DNA of 41,761 bases from Chamaesiphon sp. 336R_metabinner_41 (GTDB lineage Bacteria; Cyanobacteriota; Cyanobacteriia; Cyanobacteriales; Chamaesiphonaceae), in NCBI GenBank assembly GCA_025359915.1, contig JANYDE010000164.1, forward strand, positions 1 to 41,761, in the 5' to 3' direction. The position numbers and the translations under genes were made by a program. A model generated the notes under the pieces. It saw nothing but the letters and a program-made list of their open reading frames with translations. It did not search any database and had not been told where the DNA came from. Shown here one piece after another: positions 5,010-11,563 of this stretch (its first letter is position 1; every line of letters starts with the position of its first letter).

Positions 5010-5100
5010 GGGGGACTGGGGGACTTGGGGACTTGGACAAGTTGAAGTTAATATCACCCCGTCACCCCGTCACCCCATCACCCCATCACCGCGTCATCCC
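5010..5100. repeat. Two octamer tandem repeats between convergent genes
   Basis: Three units of GGGGGACT type (5010-5033) are followed by five full and one partial unit of CACCCCGT/CACCCCAT type (5055-5100). The G-rich and C-rich arrays can pair with each other, so the block could act as a bidirectional transcription end. The last units run into the stop codon of the WD40 gene (complement at 5094-5096). Confidence 0.8.
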
Positions 5101-8100
5101 TTCGCACCTAAGATCTTGAGATCGTCAATCTGTGCTTTTGTCAAACCTTCGACACCAGTAATATTCATCCCCTCATAGGGACGAATAGCCCGATGAGTAG
5201 AGACAACATCACCATCGGTTAGATCCCAAATCTTAATAGTTTCATCCTCACTAGCACTGGCTAAAAGTCCAGTATCAGGATGCACCGCCAATGACCATAC
5301 CCAGCTCTGATGCCCGATGAGAGTATCGATACACAGCCTGGTTTCCATCGACCAGATCTTGATTGTATCGTCAGAGGCACCGCTAAATAACAATCGACCA
5401 TCAGGACTATATGTCAGCGATAAAATCCAGCCGGAATGTCCAGTGAGCGTGTGGGCGAGTTCTCCAGTTACGATATTCCAGAGCAGGATTTGACTATCGA
5501 TGCCGCCACTGGCGAGAATAGTACCACGCGGATCAAAGGCTACGGCGATCGCTCGATTGGTATGTTGGGAGAGAATCCGAATGGGATTTTGTTCGTGGAT
5601 ATCCCAAATTCTTACGGTACGATCCTCGCCAGCACTGGCAATCAGATCGAGCTGAGGGTGGTAAGCTAATCCACCAATGCGATCGGTATGTCCCGTCCGA
5701 ACGTGCAAGCATCGCCATCTGTGGGTATCCCAGATTCGGATCGTCAAATCGCTACCTGCACTAACTAAATACTTGCCATCAGGACTATAAACTAACGCTA
5801 GCACACTTCCGGTATGTCCGCGCAGAGTATGCAGACAGGTGAGGGTTTGAGCGTCCCAAATTCTGATTGTGCGATCGTCGCTACCACTGGCAAAAGTCTT
5901 GCCATGAGGCGCGTAGGCAACAGTCAGAGTAGATTTAGTATGTCCTAATAATTCCTGGAGACAACTGTCAGAATCGATCGACCACACCCGAATCTGCGCA
6001 TCGCGACTAGCGGTAATTAACCGCTCTCCATCTGGACTCCAGGCGATCGATCGAAACCAATTAGTATAACCATTGAGTACTTGTAGACATTTACCGTCCT
6101 CGATTTGCCAAAACCGAATCGTCTGATCCTCTCCACCACTAGCTAAACAATGTCCATCGGGGTGAAATGCCACCGACCACAATCGTTTATTGTGGCCTTC
6201 GAGATAATGAGCGCAACTACCGTCGCTCGTCCGCCAAATCCGCAACAATCCACCGACACCCGCACTGGCAAAATATGCCCCATCGGGACTAAATGCCGCT
6301 GACCAAATTTCGTCGCCATGTCTGGTTAAGACTGACTGACATGCGGCATCACCAGCGGTATCCCAGCGGCGCAGGGTGCCATCCAAACTACCACTCAGGA
6401 TGGTTTTGCCATCGGGACTATAATCGACGGTTGTGACCCAATTTTCATGACCATTAAAGATTCGATCGCAGTTACCAGTTGCCACATCCCATACTCGCAC
6501 GGTACGATCAGCACCAGCACTGACTAATTGATGTCCTTCGGGATGAAATTTGACATCTACTGACCAATCTTGATGTCCGACAAATTCTCGCACACAAGTT
6601 CCAGTTGCCAGTTCCCAATAGTAGATAATATTATCAGCACTACCACTGGCAAGATAGCGACCATCGGGACTGAAACTCAAGCCGAGACTATGAATGCCAT
6701 CACCGATGGTTTGCAGACAAATCCCTTCGGCTAAGTCCCAAATTTTGATCGTTCGATCGTCACTCGAACTCGCCAACTGCTTACCATCAGGGCTAAATTT
6801 AATCGCTCGTACCCAGTTATTATGTCCCGAACAAGTCAGTAAGCACTGTCCATCCCGAACGTTCCATAACCGAATTTCCCCATTGCTGTCGCTGGCGGCG
6901 AGAGTCTGACCATCTGGACTATAGGCGATCGCGAGTACACTACTAAAGGTCTGGGTAAAAGCACAATCGACCATTTGCGCATTGGTAAAATTGACCTGCG
7001 CCAAGTCAATCCCGACTAGATACGCTTGCTGAATTACCAATTCTGAGCAGTCCAAATCGGTGAGATCTAGCCTGAGATAGGTGAGCAGATTGAGGATATT
7101 ACCCGCCAGATATCCAGGCTGAAGCGAATTTTCACTCTGCCATTGTGCCAAAATTAGGCGTAGACGGATCCCAATTTGGTGGTGATTGCCAATTGTGGTA
7201 CGGAGTCTGTCGATAATCGGTTGGACGATTAGCCGCAATTGCGCTTGCCGGAGATACTCCTTGGCATTCGCCTGGGAGATCGGATGAGTATTCAGCCAGA
7301 ATGGTGACTGATGCTCGATTTCAGTACAGATTCGATCGACAAATCGACTCGTCACATATTCCATCACCATCGGCTGTAATGACCAATGTCGCTTGCGACT
7401 TTGGCGCAGTGCTGGTGTCTCTAGCGGAGCCTGGTGGCGGAGTCTTTCGGTCAGAGAATCAAGTTGTCCAGATCCTGACGTAATGATACTTCGACGTTGA
7501 AGCGATTGCAACACAGTCAATAAAGATGAATTCGCATAGGGTTTGCACTCCCCCTGAGCGTGAAGATTCCAGGCTGGATGGAGACACTCTTCCAAATCGA
7601 GAATTGGCATCGGTTCTCTCGAGATCGTCAGCCAGTACATCACCTGCTGCTCCTCGACTGTCAAGCGTTGCCACTGTTGCTCCAGCAGAATATGAATATC
7701 GGCAAAACCCAATCGATGGGATTTTAAGTAAGGGAAAATTTCACTCGCATCCCCATCAGCTACTTCCTGAACTGTTGCTGCAATCAGTTGCAATGCCAGC
7801 GGATTGCCACCACAATATCGATCGATCTCTGCCCATTCTAATGCCGGAACGGGCAAACATCCTCGATCGGCAAAAATATGTTGTCCAGCCGCAGCATCTA
7901 ATCCTGGCAAGACTAATGTTTTGACTTTATTATTTGCCCCTTCCAACTGACTAATTTCTGCTGGCTTTTCTCGACTAGTCATCACCAAGCAACTCTGGTG
8001 ATTCATCCTGCCTAAGGTGCTAAACAGATCGCCATAATTAGCATATCCAGCGCGATATTGTCCAGTATGTGCCCCAGCTTGAAAAATTGATTCGCCATTA

Positions 8101-8855
8101 TCTAATACAATCAGACAGCGTTGTTTTTGACAGATATCTAATAACAACTCAATCTGTCCGCCGACTGTTTTCGGTATTAATTCTGGATGAAACTGAGGAC
8201 GATCTAATGGCAAGGCTACCACCAACTTACCCAGGCGACCTTGATGCTCGGCTTTCCCTATGGGTGGCATCATTAAGGTGCGGATCAGTTCTGGCAGTAA
8301 TTCTTTCAATGGTGGCGCGTTGAGTAAACTGCGCCAGATAATATGATGGAATCGATCGGGATTTACGGGGATATTTGAATCTGGTTCAGCTTGCAACTGT
8401 CGTAATAACTCGATCGAGATCGTCGTTTTTCCCATCCCACCCATGCCCAGAATCGCGACTACTCGACAACGGTCTTTCATTATCCATCGATCGAGTTGAC
8501 TCTTTTCTAGTTCGCGTCCATAAAATGCCGAAACATCCATTGCATCGCCCCAATCAATTCCCAACTTAAGCGGCTCTGGCTCAATGGATGGAATCGGGTT
8601 TTCAGTTGTGACAAGTGACTCCAATACCTGCCGGAAATTATTTTTAGAAACCTTACATCTAGTAACTGTTCCTAGCATTCGCCAGACTTGAGCACCCACA
8701 CCTTTAATATAATTATGGTCATACCCAGCATCAGCAGCCAGATCTCGATAAGATCGACCTTGCCAAGCTGCCCTAAATACCATTTCTTGAGGCGGGTTTA
8801 GGTATTCTGGGGACAATAGTTCTTTTACAATTGCCTCTGCGCGGTCTAGTTCCAC
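5094..8855 (-). CDS. STAND NTPase with 14 WD40 repeats
   Basis: A 1253-aa protein. Residues 1-80 resemble the N-terminal helix-turn-helix-like domain often attached to cyanobacterial NB-ARC proteins. An NB-ARC/NACHT-type NTPase follows, with P-loop GMGGMGKTT (137-145) and Walker B CLIVLDNGES. A short stretch around LDLTDLDCSELVIQQAYL looks like pentapeptide-type repeats. Residues about 630-1215 carry 14 WD40 repeats (SPDGxxLASGSxDxTIxIWD pattern), enough for two seven-bladed propellers, and the conserved RPYEGMNITG tail closes the protein. STAND proteins are NTP-driven switches: the propeller is expected to sense a ligand and trigger oligomerisation. There is no recognisable effector domain (nuclease, protease, TIR), so output is unknown. 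GTG start at 8855, with AGGTGG close upstream. A regulatory or immune-like role is inference. Confidence 0.9.
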   Translation of the reverse strand: MELDRAEAIVKELLSPEYLNPPQEMVFRAAWQGRSYRDLAADAGYDHNYIKGVGAQVWRMLGTVTRCKVSKNNFRQVLESLVTTENPIPSIEPEPLKLGIDWGDAMDVSAFYGRELEKSQLDRWIMKDRCRVVAILGMGGMGKTTISIELLRQLQAEPDSNIPVNPDRFHHIIWRSLLNAPPLKELLPELIRTLMMPPIGKAEHQGRLGKLVVALPLDRPQFHPELIPKTVGGQIELLLDICQKQRCLIVLDNGESIFQAGAHTGQYRAGYANYGDLFSTLGRMNHQSCLVMTSREKPAEISQLEGANNKVKTLVLPGLDAAAGQHIFADRGCLPVPALEWAEIDRYCGGNPLALQLIAATVQEVADGDASEIFPYLKSHRLGFADIHILLEQQWQRLTVEEQQVMYWLTISREPMPILDLEECLHPAWNLHAQGECKPYANSSLLTVLQSLQRRSIITSGSGQLDSLTERLRHQAPLETPALRQSRKRHWSLQPMVMEYVTSRFVDRICTEIEHQSPFWLNTHPISQANAKEYLRQAQLRLIVQPIIDRLRTTIGNHHQIGIRLRLILAQWQSENSLQPGYLAGNILNLLTYLRLDLTDLDCSELVIQQAYLVGIDLAQVNFTNAQMVDCAFTQTFSSVLAIAYSPDGQTLAASDSNGEIRLWNVRDGQCLLTCSGHNNWVRAIKFSPDGKQLASSSDDRTIKIWDLAEGICLQTIGDGIHSLGLSFSPDGRYLASGSADNIIYYWELATGTCVREFVGHQDWSVDVKFHPEGHQLVSAGADRTVRVWDVATGNCDRIFNGHENWVTTVDYSPDGKTILSGSLDGTLRRWDTAGDAACQSVLTRHGDEIWSAAFSPDGAYFASAGVGGLLRIWRTSDGSCAHYLEGHNKRLWSVAFHPDGHCLASGGEDQTIRFWQIEDGKCLQVLNGYTNWFRSIAWSPDGERLITASRDAQIRVWSIDSDSCLQELLGHTKSTLTVAYAPHGKTFASGSDDRTIRIWDAQTLTCLHTLRGHTGSVLALVYSPDGKYLVSAGSDLTIRIWDTHRWRCLHVRTGHTDRIGGLAYHPQLDLIASAGEDRTVRIWDIHEQNPIRILSQHTNRAIAVAFDPRGTILASGGIDSQILLWNIVTGELAHTLTGHSGWILSLTYSPDGRLLFSGASDDTIKIWSMETRLCIDTLIGHQSWVWSLAVHPDTGLLASASEDETIKIWDLTDGDVVSTHRAIRPYEGMNITGVEGLTKAQIDDLKILGAKG

Positions 8856-9545: not shown

Positions 9546-11423
9546 TCAACTAAAATTAGAAGCTACAGCCACCTTTACCTGTGCTAACCGGAGTACTCGA
9601 TCTCCTAGAGTATAACCGCGTTTTAGCTCCGAAATTATTACACCCGCGGGATGATCGTGGGTACCAATTTCTTGAACGATCTCATGGAAATGAGCATCGA
9701 ATTTTTGACCTTTACTGTCAGTAAATTGGATACCGATTTCGCGAATGCTCGATAGCATTTTATTTTCTAACATTGAGTAACCCTTTTGGATCGCAGCTTC
9801 TCGATCTGTCTGTGGCTTAATCGAAGTTCGTGCTAGTTCAATTACATCAATCACCGATAATAATTGTAAGGCAATTTCTGCGCGAGTACCTTGTTCTACT
9901 TGAGATCGAGTCCGCTGGATCCGGTGCTCGAAGTCGTCTGAGTCTTGTTGATATTTTGCTAGTTGTGTTGACAAATATTCACAGTCAGCTTTGGCTTTTA
10001 CGGCTTGTTGTTTCCAGTGCCAAGCAACTTCCAAACTTGCAGTACTATCGATATCGACATCATCAGTATCTGGACAGGTTTCAGTATTGGCAAGCTGATT
10101 TTGTAATAAAGTTTTGGGTGGGACACATCGCTTGACTTCGGCGAGTGTAGTTTTCCCCTCGCGAAATAGACTAATTGCGAGATCTAGAAACGATCGCATT
10201 CCCATTTCCTGAGCGGCTAAATCGATATGCTCGGCATCGCCATTGACGATCGCTGACTTGAGTCGATCGGTTATAGTTAATACTTCATGAACACCGATCG
10301 ATCCACGATAACCCGCACCCTGACAGTTTGGACACAATTTACCTGACTGTTTTGCACGCTCGATTTCGCCCATACTCAGACAGTGAGCGCGGTAATAAGA
10401 TCGACTGTTGTTCAAATTTAGAATCGTACTGCCGATTCGCGCTAATTCTAAGCGATCTGGCTCTTCAGCCAACCGACATTCATCACAGACCTGTTTAATC
10501 ATTTTCTGGGAAATGATACCAATGGTGGCGGTGTAGAGCCTGGCTGCGGGGATGCCCAAGTCGATCAGATGAGCGATCGCTTTACCTGCTGTTTCGACTG
10601 AAATTGTTGCGAATACTAAACAACCTTGCGCCACTGCTTGGAGAGCGGCTTGCGCCACGGGAAAACTCTCGATCGATCCAATCGCTAGTACATCAGGATC
10701 TTGCGCTAGACAAGTTTGAATCGTGCGGACGATCGTCTCATCAGTAGCATTAGTTGGCAGGGTAATTTGATTAATCCCTGGGACTATATATTTTACTTGA
10801 CGATCGATCGCATAAATATTACGATGCGATTGCTGAAGTTCGGCTAAAATCGCGGCAATAGTTGTCGATTTGCCACTATTTTGTCCGCCAACAATTAGGA
10901 TCAATCCTCGATCGCTAGCTGTCAATTGTTGAATCGAATCAAATGTTTCACGATTAGAAATTAGCTGTTTGAGTGCGAGTGGTGATTGCTGAATATACGT
11001 AACTTTGGCCGTAATACTATCCCCAAATTGCGTGGGTAAAGTTGTAAATTGAACCTTCACTCGACCGAGCTTACCTGACTTATAAATAGTGCCAGTTTGC
11101 GGTGCCGGAAGATCGGAGCCAATTTTGGCGATCGATTTCAGGTATTCGATTGTGGGAGCGATTAATTTGTGCGGTAAATTTTGTAAGGCAATTTGCAGCG
11201 AACCATTTTGTCGAATTCTAATTTGGAGCGATTGTGCTTGCGGTTCAAAATAGATCTGTGAAGTTCGATCGTCGATCGCCTTTGCTAAAATACGCTCAAC
11301 CAAGTTGACGAGTGCATTATCTTCATCAGAAGTTGGTCGAATATGATTATTCATAACAAAAGATCGATAGCGAGTGACTGTAAATCCATTATGTTTGCCG
11401 TTTTGTCGATCGGCATCCGCCAT
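9546..11423 (-). CDS. GspE/PilB-like pseudo-ATPase fused to a GrpE domain
   Basis: A 625-aa two-part protein. Residues about 35-440 align with type II secretion/type IV pilus ATPases: N2-like domain, Walker A GGQNSGKSTT (K185), and the zinc tetracysteine C313, C316, C364, C367. Key catalytic features differ: the Asp box (usually VEDPxE) reads AIDRQVK, Walker B (usually VGEIRD) reads AIGSIES (Glu to Ser at 250), and the His box (usually TLHTN) reads TISVE. After a Cys/Asp-rich linker (about 440-465), residues about 465-625 are GrpE-like: a coiled coil, a four-helix segment, and the wing with FDAHFHEIVQ and ELKRGYTLGDRVLRLAQVKVA. GrpE is the nucleotide exchange factor of DnaK. ATP binding seems possible but hydrolysis unlikely. 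A role recruiting an Hsp70 to a membrane or pilus-like machine is speculation. Start at ATG 11423 or 11354. Confidence 0.85.
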   Translation of the reverse strand: MADADRQNGKHNGFTVTRYRSFVMNNHIRPTSDEDNALVNLVERILAKAIDDRTSQIYFEPQAQSLQIRIRQNGSLQIALQNLPHKLIAPTIEYLKSIAKIGSDLPAPQTGTIYKSGKLGRVKVQFTTLPTQFGDSITAKVTYIQQSPLALKQLISNRETFDSIQQLTASDRGLILIVGGQNSGKSTTIAAILAELQQSHRNIYAIDRQVKYIVPGINQITLPTNATDETIVRTIQTCLAQDPDVLAIGSIESFPVAQAALQAVAQGCLVFATISVETAGKAIAHLIDLGIPAARLYTATIGIISQKMIKQVCDECRLAEEPDRLELARIGSTILNLNNSRSYYRAHCLSMGEIERAKQSGKLCPNCQGAGYRGSIGVHEVLTITDRLKSAIVNGDAEHIDLAAQEMGMRSFLDLAISLFREGKTTLAEVKRCVPPKTLLQNQLANTETCPDTDDVDIDSTASLEVAWHWKQQAVKAKADCEYLSTQLAKYQQDSDDFEHRIQRTRSQVEQGTRAEIALQLLSVIDVIELARTSIKPQTDREAAIQKGYSMLENKMLSSIREIGIQFTDSKGQKFDAHFHEIVQEIGTHDHPAGVIISELKRGYTLGDRVLRLAQVKVAVASNFS

Positions 11424-11508
11424 TTGAGCTAGAAGGAATAAAAGGCAAAAGACTAACTCTGACTACTACTCTGAATTCTTCAACCCTGTCACTTTACCAC
11501 TAAAAATT

Positions 11509-11538
11509 AAAGCTAGATAGACTTAACTATCTAGCTTT
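11509..11538 (-). terminator. Intrinsic terminator after the cupin-like gene
   Basis: A perfect 12-bp stem (AAAGCTAGATAG, 11509-11520, with CTATCTAGCTTT, 11527-11538) around a 6-nt loop. Read on the minus strand it is followed by AATTTTT (complement of 11502-11508). It would separate the cupin-like gene from the GspE/GrpE gene downstream. Confidence 0.75.
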
Positions 11539-11563
11539 ATAATTTTAGCTATTTTGAACATCT

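Follow-up and report, generated by a model that had tools for sequence, protein, structure and literature searches.

A protein that joins a degenerate pilus ATPase to a GrpE-type domain is encoded on the 41,761-nucleotide stretch of Chamaesiphon DNA analysed here (hereafter the window). The reading that we tentatively favour, with chances that we would place slightly below even, is a non-enzymatic regulator or adaptor at the junction of the pilus motor and DnaK1, built from an N-terminally truncated pseudo-PilB and a dimer-forming domain of GrpE descent. With both halves apparently impaired in catalysis, a structural or restraining role is most likely. No description of a PilB/GspE-GrpE fusion was found in the literature searched, where the protein seems unreported.

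According to McDonald et al. 2022 (PMC9239167), DnaK1 of Nostoc interacts with GrpE, PilB and Hfq, localises to active pilus motors and is needed for motility and polysaccharide, the motility polysaccharide requiring DnaJ3 as well. For Synechocystis, the same study reports that the DnaK1-Hfq contact was detected and the DnaK1-PilB contact was not. A GrpE-containing chaperone system at active cyanobacterial pilus motors is thus reported to switch on polysaccharide, by a coupling that the study leaves unexplained. Since a covalent PilB-GrpE protein occurs in the phylum in which these contacts were described, the fusion points to the DnaK1-pilus node.

Gene and domain architecture

The fusion gene (Table 1) is read from the minus strand without internal stop, whereas the plus strand of the same interval contains 39 stops. 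Only T2SSE and GrpE passed the Pfam gathering cut-offs (24.9 and 25.8 bits, respectively), with scores of 184.5 and 105 bits; the N-terminal MshEN domain of PilB was not detected in this search. The preliminary description, a secretion-ATPase core fused to a recognisable GrpE domain, is thereby borne out, with both scores far above cut-off and that of GrpE nowhere near background. The motifs that it listed are also present: GGQNSGKST (Walker A), YAIDRQ (Asp box), GSIES (following Walker B), TISVE (His box) and CxxC...CxxC. At the level of equivalogs the protein falls short of both families, scoring 198 bits against PilB TIGR02538 (cut-off 675.65 bits) and 110.6 bits against the NCBIfam GrpE equivalog (cut-off 184 bits).

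Structure modelling agreed with the two-domain reading, each fold being recovered by Foldseek. The model of the PilB half gave PilF (5oiu) as best match (E 3.6e-36), and PilB and GspE structures matched as well. As the initial full-length model had a poor beta-wing, the GrpE half was refolded alone with a cleaner alignment that included canonical GrpE relatives. The resulting model (mean pLDDT 85.8) contains the long helix, the second helix and the beta-wing, and matches GrpE structures 9a81, 9bls, 4ani and 1dkg with E-values down to 1.7e-11; as modelled, the second half keeps the complete GrpE fold.

The fusion gene is probably its own transcription unit, separate from the upstream gene, since a terminator-like hairpin parts the two; the scan that identified the hairpin returned four such sites where 2.2 were expected. 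No Rfam elements were found near the fusion gene. About 690 bp away on the same strand lies a gene for a 1253 aa protein (window positions 5094-8855, minus strand) that combines an NTPase-like region and 13 matches to the WD40 repeat.

Table 1. Features of the fusion gene and its upstream region; nucleotide positions are those of the window, aa positions those of the encoded protein
Feature	Position	Strand	Basis
Pseudo-PilB/GrpE fusion gene, 625 aa	9546..11423	-	ORF and Pfam
Alternative start Met24, conserved among orthologues	~11354	-	Orthologue comparison
PilB/GspE core, PF00437 (T2SSE), aa 33-432	10128..11327	-	Pfam 184.5 bits; Foldseek
Q125 replacing arginine finger R271	11049..11051	-	R in 40/40 canonical; Q/E/A/E/A/L across six fusions
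K140 replacing arginine finger R286	11004..11006	-	R in 40/40 canonical; K/K/K/K/E/K across six fusions
Walker A GGQNSGKS, aa 179-186, intact in this fusion	10866..10889	-	Alignment
Degenerate ASP box IDRQVK, aa 206-211; Mg-coordinating E357 replaced by K211	10791..10808	-	Alignment
GSIES in place of GExRD, aa 249-253; catalytic E395 replaced by S250, D398 by S253	10665..10679	-	Alignment
TISVE in place of TLHTN, aa 273-277; H420 replaced by S275, H413 by C268	10593..10607	-	Alignment
Tetracysteine zinc region, C313, C316, C364, C367	10323..10487	-	4/4 Cys in all six fusions
Interdomain linker, aa 438-470	10014..10112	-	Pfam and structure model
GrpE domain, PF01025, aa 471-619: long helix, second helix, beta-wing	9567..10013	-	Pfam 105 bits; model
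Equivalent of DnaK-binding helix patch, aa 490-504	9912..9956	-	R64>K490, N71>D497, R73>E499, K74>H500; R75 (R501) and R78 (R504) kept
Terminator-like 13-bp hairpin with T tract, upstream of the fusion gene	11508..11539	-	Scan only

Active site of the PilB-like half

The two arginine fingers, the Asp-box Glu, the catalytic Glu and the HIS-box His have roles in the PilB ATPase (PMC5424180). Using the residue numbering of Geobacter metallireducens PilB, mapped by alignment, we compared 40 canonical cyanobacterial PilBs with six fusions, five of which are orthologues from other genomes. R271, R286, D398, E400, H413 and H420 occur in all 40 canonical sequences and in none of the fusions. The sites of E395 (S/S/A/E/A/D) and E357 (K/K/T/K/T/E) are each changed in five of the six, the exceptions being G004, which retains the catalytic Glu, and G056, which retains E357 and has Asp at E395. 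The alignment placed no catalytic Glu or His elsewhere. With the arginine fingers, D398, E400 and the HIS-box histidines lost throughout and E395 and E357 mostly changed, ATP hydrolysis by the PilB half is, from these residues, very unlikely.

Walker A is a different matter: its lysine is missing from two of the six (GARDSGTS in G003, GARDSSTS in G006). Because of this and the loss of both arginine fingers in all six, ATP binding is, by the alignment, not a conserved property of the fusions. Of the earlier proposal of an ATP-binding but non-hydrolysing protein only the second part therefore stands, and the intact Walker A holds for the window's gene and not as a family trait. The zinc tetracysteine, also proposed, is complete in every fusion.

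How far these losses exceed general decay was assessed from the 189 positions invariant in canonical PilB, 71-113 of which are retained by the fusions, with 55-79% in the C-terminal and zinc region as opposed to 29-56% in the ATPase region. One-sided Fisher tests of catalytic-site loss against overall divergence gave p values from 0.005 to 0.29, significant in some rows only, so that by this comparison the catalytic losses only partly exceed background divergence.

As a member of the PilB/GspE superfamily the half is recognised by its PF00437 score, its Foldseek matches and its tetracysteine, while the residue set of a functional PilB ATPase is absent. It resembles cyanobacterial PilB (PilB1, the type IVa pilus extension ATPase, PF00437/TIGR02538) in core fold, tetracysteine zinc motif and C-terminal region, at approximately 30-35% identity over 400 aa. 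It differs in lacking MshEN, both arginine fingers, the catalytic Glu (save in G004), D398 and the HIS-box histidines, and in carrying a C-terminal GrpE domain. In the phylogeny of the PilB half the fusion core groups with cyanobacterial PilB, apart from a 569 aa PilB/GspE paralogue used as outgroup. A GspE or a second secretion machine was thus rejected as its source, and the original label "GspE-like" is right about the superfamily fold and wrong about the derivation.

Pseudo-PilB paralogues of G045 (823 aa) and G017 (767 aa) likewise keep the zinc motif and have lost the HIS box and the Glu-Arg-Asp residues. Unlike the fusions they have no GrpE domain, and they form separate groups in the tree, where a common origin with the fusions was not seen. 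Both (L120:845-3313 and L121:538-2838, minus strands) keep Walker A and carry a coiled or disordered C-terminal tail in the place of GrpE. PilB catalysis thus seems, judging from these sequences, to have been lost more than once in cyanobacteria. A further variant, a 900 aa ORF of G036 (L122:618-3317, minus strand), combines a PilB-like ATPase having intact motifs with what by eye are two flanking response-regulator receiver domains.

DnaK-binding patch of the GrpE-like half

In Mycobacterium tuberculosis GrpE, joint mutation of R64, N71, R73, K74, R75 and R78, or of R64 and R75 alone, nearly abolishes ADP/ATP exchange, and the six-residue mutant is also without DnaK binding (PMC10803776). We compared this patch by ungapped alignment of the DnaK-binding helix, using M. 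tuberculosis numbering. Canonical cyanobacterial GrpEs have R, N, R, K, R and K at the six sites nearly without exception. The Chamaesiphon fusions have K/N/H, D/E, E, H/Q, R and R/Q, keeping one or two of the six (the window's own fusion, G000, retains R75 and R78), and the G056 fusion has E, N, M, K, A and R, with R64, R73 and R75 replaced. R73 hence became Glu or Met, whereas its acidic partner, DnaK E20, is kept in 12 of the 12 DnaKs examined from four genomes. Since these DnaKs keep E20, the R73E charge reversal looks uncompensated, and the GrpE half is therefore probably a poor exchange factor. The preliminary description did not include this degeneration of the GrpE half itself at its DnaK-binding helix, evident from the alignment, and its suggestion that the protein brings an Hsp70 becomes doubtful, given that each of the six fusions has most of the patch needed for DnaK binding replaced.

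The fusions retain 36-41 of 79 canonical GrpE invariants, and because about half are thus lost, the argument from the patch is functional rather than statistical: its loss is not shown to exceed the overall divergence of the half. GrpE family membership is clear from the fold (PF01025 at 105 bits, Foldseek) and the basic patch of a functional exchange factor is missing. Relative to cyanobacterial GrpE (PF01025, the nucleotide exchange factor of DnaK), with 33-39% identity, the long helix, helix bundle and beta-wing are alike; the differences are the junction with PilB, the largely replaced DnaK-binding patch and the presence of a canonical copy in the same genome.

A docking PilB half with a GrpE half that still works as exchange factor and localises the turnover of DnaK1 at the pilus motor, as originally envisaged, is nevertheless an alternative to be weighed. 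The complete predicted fold, the stronger constraint on this half (dN/dS 0.067), the retained beta-wing motif RGYxLGDRVLR with the equivalents of D110 and R169, and the published DnaK1-GrpE-PilB network (PMC9239167) speak for it, and the beta-wing motif together with R75 makes a local exchange factor possible in Chamaesiphon. Yet R64, N71, R73, K74 and R78 are mostly replaced there, as are R64, R73 and R75 in G056; the matching mutants are the ones nearly without exchange and DnaK binding (PMC10803776), and in the DnaKs checked the acidic residue opposite R73 is still present. We consider this version unlikely.

Of similarly low probability is a dominant-negative or buffering subunit, whose GrpE half would enter mixed dimers with canonical GrpE, or whose PilB half would enter PilB hexamers, and lower their activity. 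The helix bundle and the long helix, which together build the GrpE dimer, are predicted intact while the DnaK contacts are lost, and canonical partners are at hand in each fusion genome examined, which would suit such a subunit; an identity to canonical GrpE of only approximately 36% does not.

Genomic context

The genome of the window holds, as the preliminary description recommended checking, a stand-alone canonical grpE and, on another contig, canonical pilB next to pilT; canonical partners were present in every fusion genome examined. In G000 (contig C67) pilC-pilT-pilB runs one way and grpE-dnaK-dnaJ the other, with a shared intergenic region in between. The same divergent layout of pilB and grpE recurs elsewhere in Chamaesiphon and in further families (L097-L100, L106), G009 being an exception with the pil and grpE-dnaK-dnaJ operons on different contigs. 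As pilB and grpE head divergent operons, the fusion joins the first genes of the two. The region between pilB-pilT-pilC and grpE-dnaK-dnaJ is, in its own right, a putative shared control region and a candidate for pilus-chaperone co-regulation.

Among the fusion loci compared, no conserved neighbourhood or operon ties the fusion to pilus genes, and the context differs between species. Beside the G056 fusion (L092:11884-14971, minus strand) lie a 408 aa protein that matched no Pfam family and by eye is secretin/AMIN-like, and a Ser/Thr kinase whose N terminus is rich in cysteine.

Distribution, selection and origin

Orthologues are encoded in five of nine genomes of the genus Chamaesiphon (G000, G002, G003, G004 and G006) and are absent from G005 (99% complete) and from G001, G007 and G008 (77-89% complete). 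A sixth occurs in one distant genome of another family, G056, whose family mates are without it. Among the matches listed for 391 genomes of the order these six are the only fusion ORFs longer than 600 aa, and their scores (231-311 bits) stand far apart from those of every other GrpE listed (153 bits at most). The matches listed for 390 genomes of the class included no further full-length fusion; those listed for plasmid records were all stand-alone GspE/PilB genes, each covering less than 80% of the query. The closest named record to the window's fusion is a Chamaesiphon MAG protein with 72% identity. All six are open over 600-712 aa with a conserved fusion point, and the survey, which had been proposed as a check, revealed no relative that splits the gene in two.

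Selection was estimated from G003/G006, the only unsaturated pair (dS 0.3-0.4). The PilB half had a dN/dS of 0.162 and the GrpE half one of 0.067, compared with 0.024 for canonical pilB and 0.030 for canonical grpE of the same genomes, corresponding to purifying selection that is approximately seven-fold and two-fold weaker, respectively. Judged from these ratios, natural selection maintains the fusion gene, which evolves faster than the canonical genes.

Fusion branches are very long in both phylogenies. All six fusions group together in the GrpE-half tree (support 86/87). In the PilB-half tree they do not form one clade with the full set, although a single clade was not rejected (p 0.44), and with a smaller set they are grouped at 83/83. 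Because of the extreme branch lengths we do not claim a single origin; there may have been one or two. Neither half nests within the canonical genes of Chamaesiphon in the best trees. Nesting of the PilB halves within each lineage's own PilB was disfavoured and not rejected (AU p 0.094 and 0.099); a recent joining of pilB and grpE copies belonging to the genus itself is thus unsupported by the best trees, although a tree holding the PilB halves together with the canonical Chamaesiphon genes is not rejected (AU p 0.099).

The long branches, the restriction to few lineages with absence from close relatives such as the nearly complete G005, and the missing neighbourhood link would also fit a neofunctionalised protein that no longer serves the pilus or the DnaK system. 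We hold this for quite improbable: the zinc region and the GrpE beta-wing are specifically retained, and it would otherwise be coincidence that the two halves united here have canonical counterparts which adjoin in the genome and interact as proteins. A pseudogene or an artefact of annotation, frameshift or assembly, to which restricted distribution and fast evolution might point, is hardly credible and was rejected, since the same fusion occurs as a single reading frame in five further genomes, is open over its length with a conserved fusion point, and has a dN/dS that lies well under 1 for each half.

Discussion

The regulator or adaptor that we favour would have arisen when a cyanobacterial PilB paralogue, deprived of its N terminus and ATPase active site, was combined with a dimer-forming domain descended from GrpE. 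We infer that PilB, PilC or Hfq partners offer the docking site for the PilB-like half, and that the GrpE-like stalk would dimerise via its long helix with itself or with canonical GrpE. The fusion may then tune motor-chaperone coupling, presumably by restraining or scaffolding as the most likely sign of the effect, and would neither run exchange cycles nor power the pilus.

In the DnaK1/DnaJ3/GrpE system that couples type IV pilus motors to polysaccharide secretion, GrpE and PilB likewise come together, and here, too, a dnaK gene lies close to grpE and pilB; that system differs in that GrpE and PilB are separate active proteins, the available part of its report describing no PilB-GrpE fusion (PMC9239167). 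The proposed link between pilus and Hsp70 accordingly survives through the canonical gene neighbourhood and the published DnaK1-GrpE-PilB interaction, and not in the form of a protein that recruits an Hsp70, the patch being replaced. A more far-reaching version, which we regard as somewhat unlikely, is that the doubly degenerate fusion, which may go back to a single ancient event and owe its scattered occurrence to loss or transfer, is a dedicated mechanical or regulatory coupler of motor and DnaK1, with control over surface attachment and over the secretion of polysaccharide linked to the pilus.

As a natural covalent link of PilB to GrpE, the protein provides independent comparative evidence for the contact between pilus motor and chaperone reported in PMC9239167. 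Since both catalytic functions look lost, it separates contact from catalysis and would be a ready probe for interaction and for dominant-negative effects. Chamaesiphon is an attached cyanobacterium, and attachment and sheath would therefore be the natural phenotypes in which to look for the role of the fusion.
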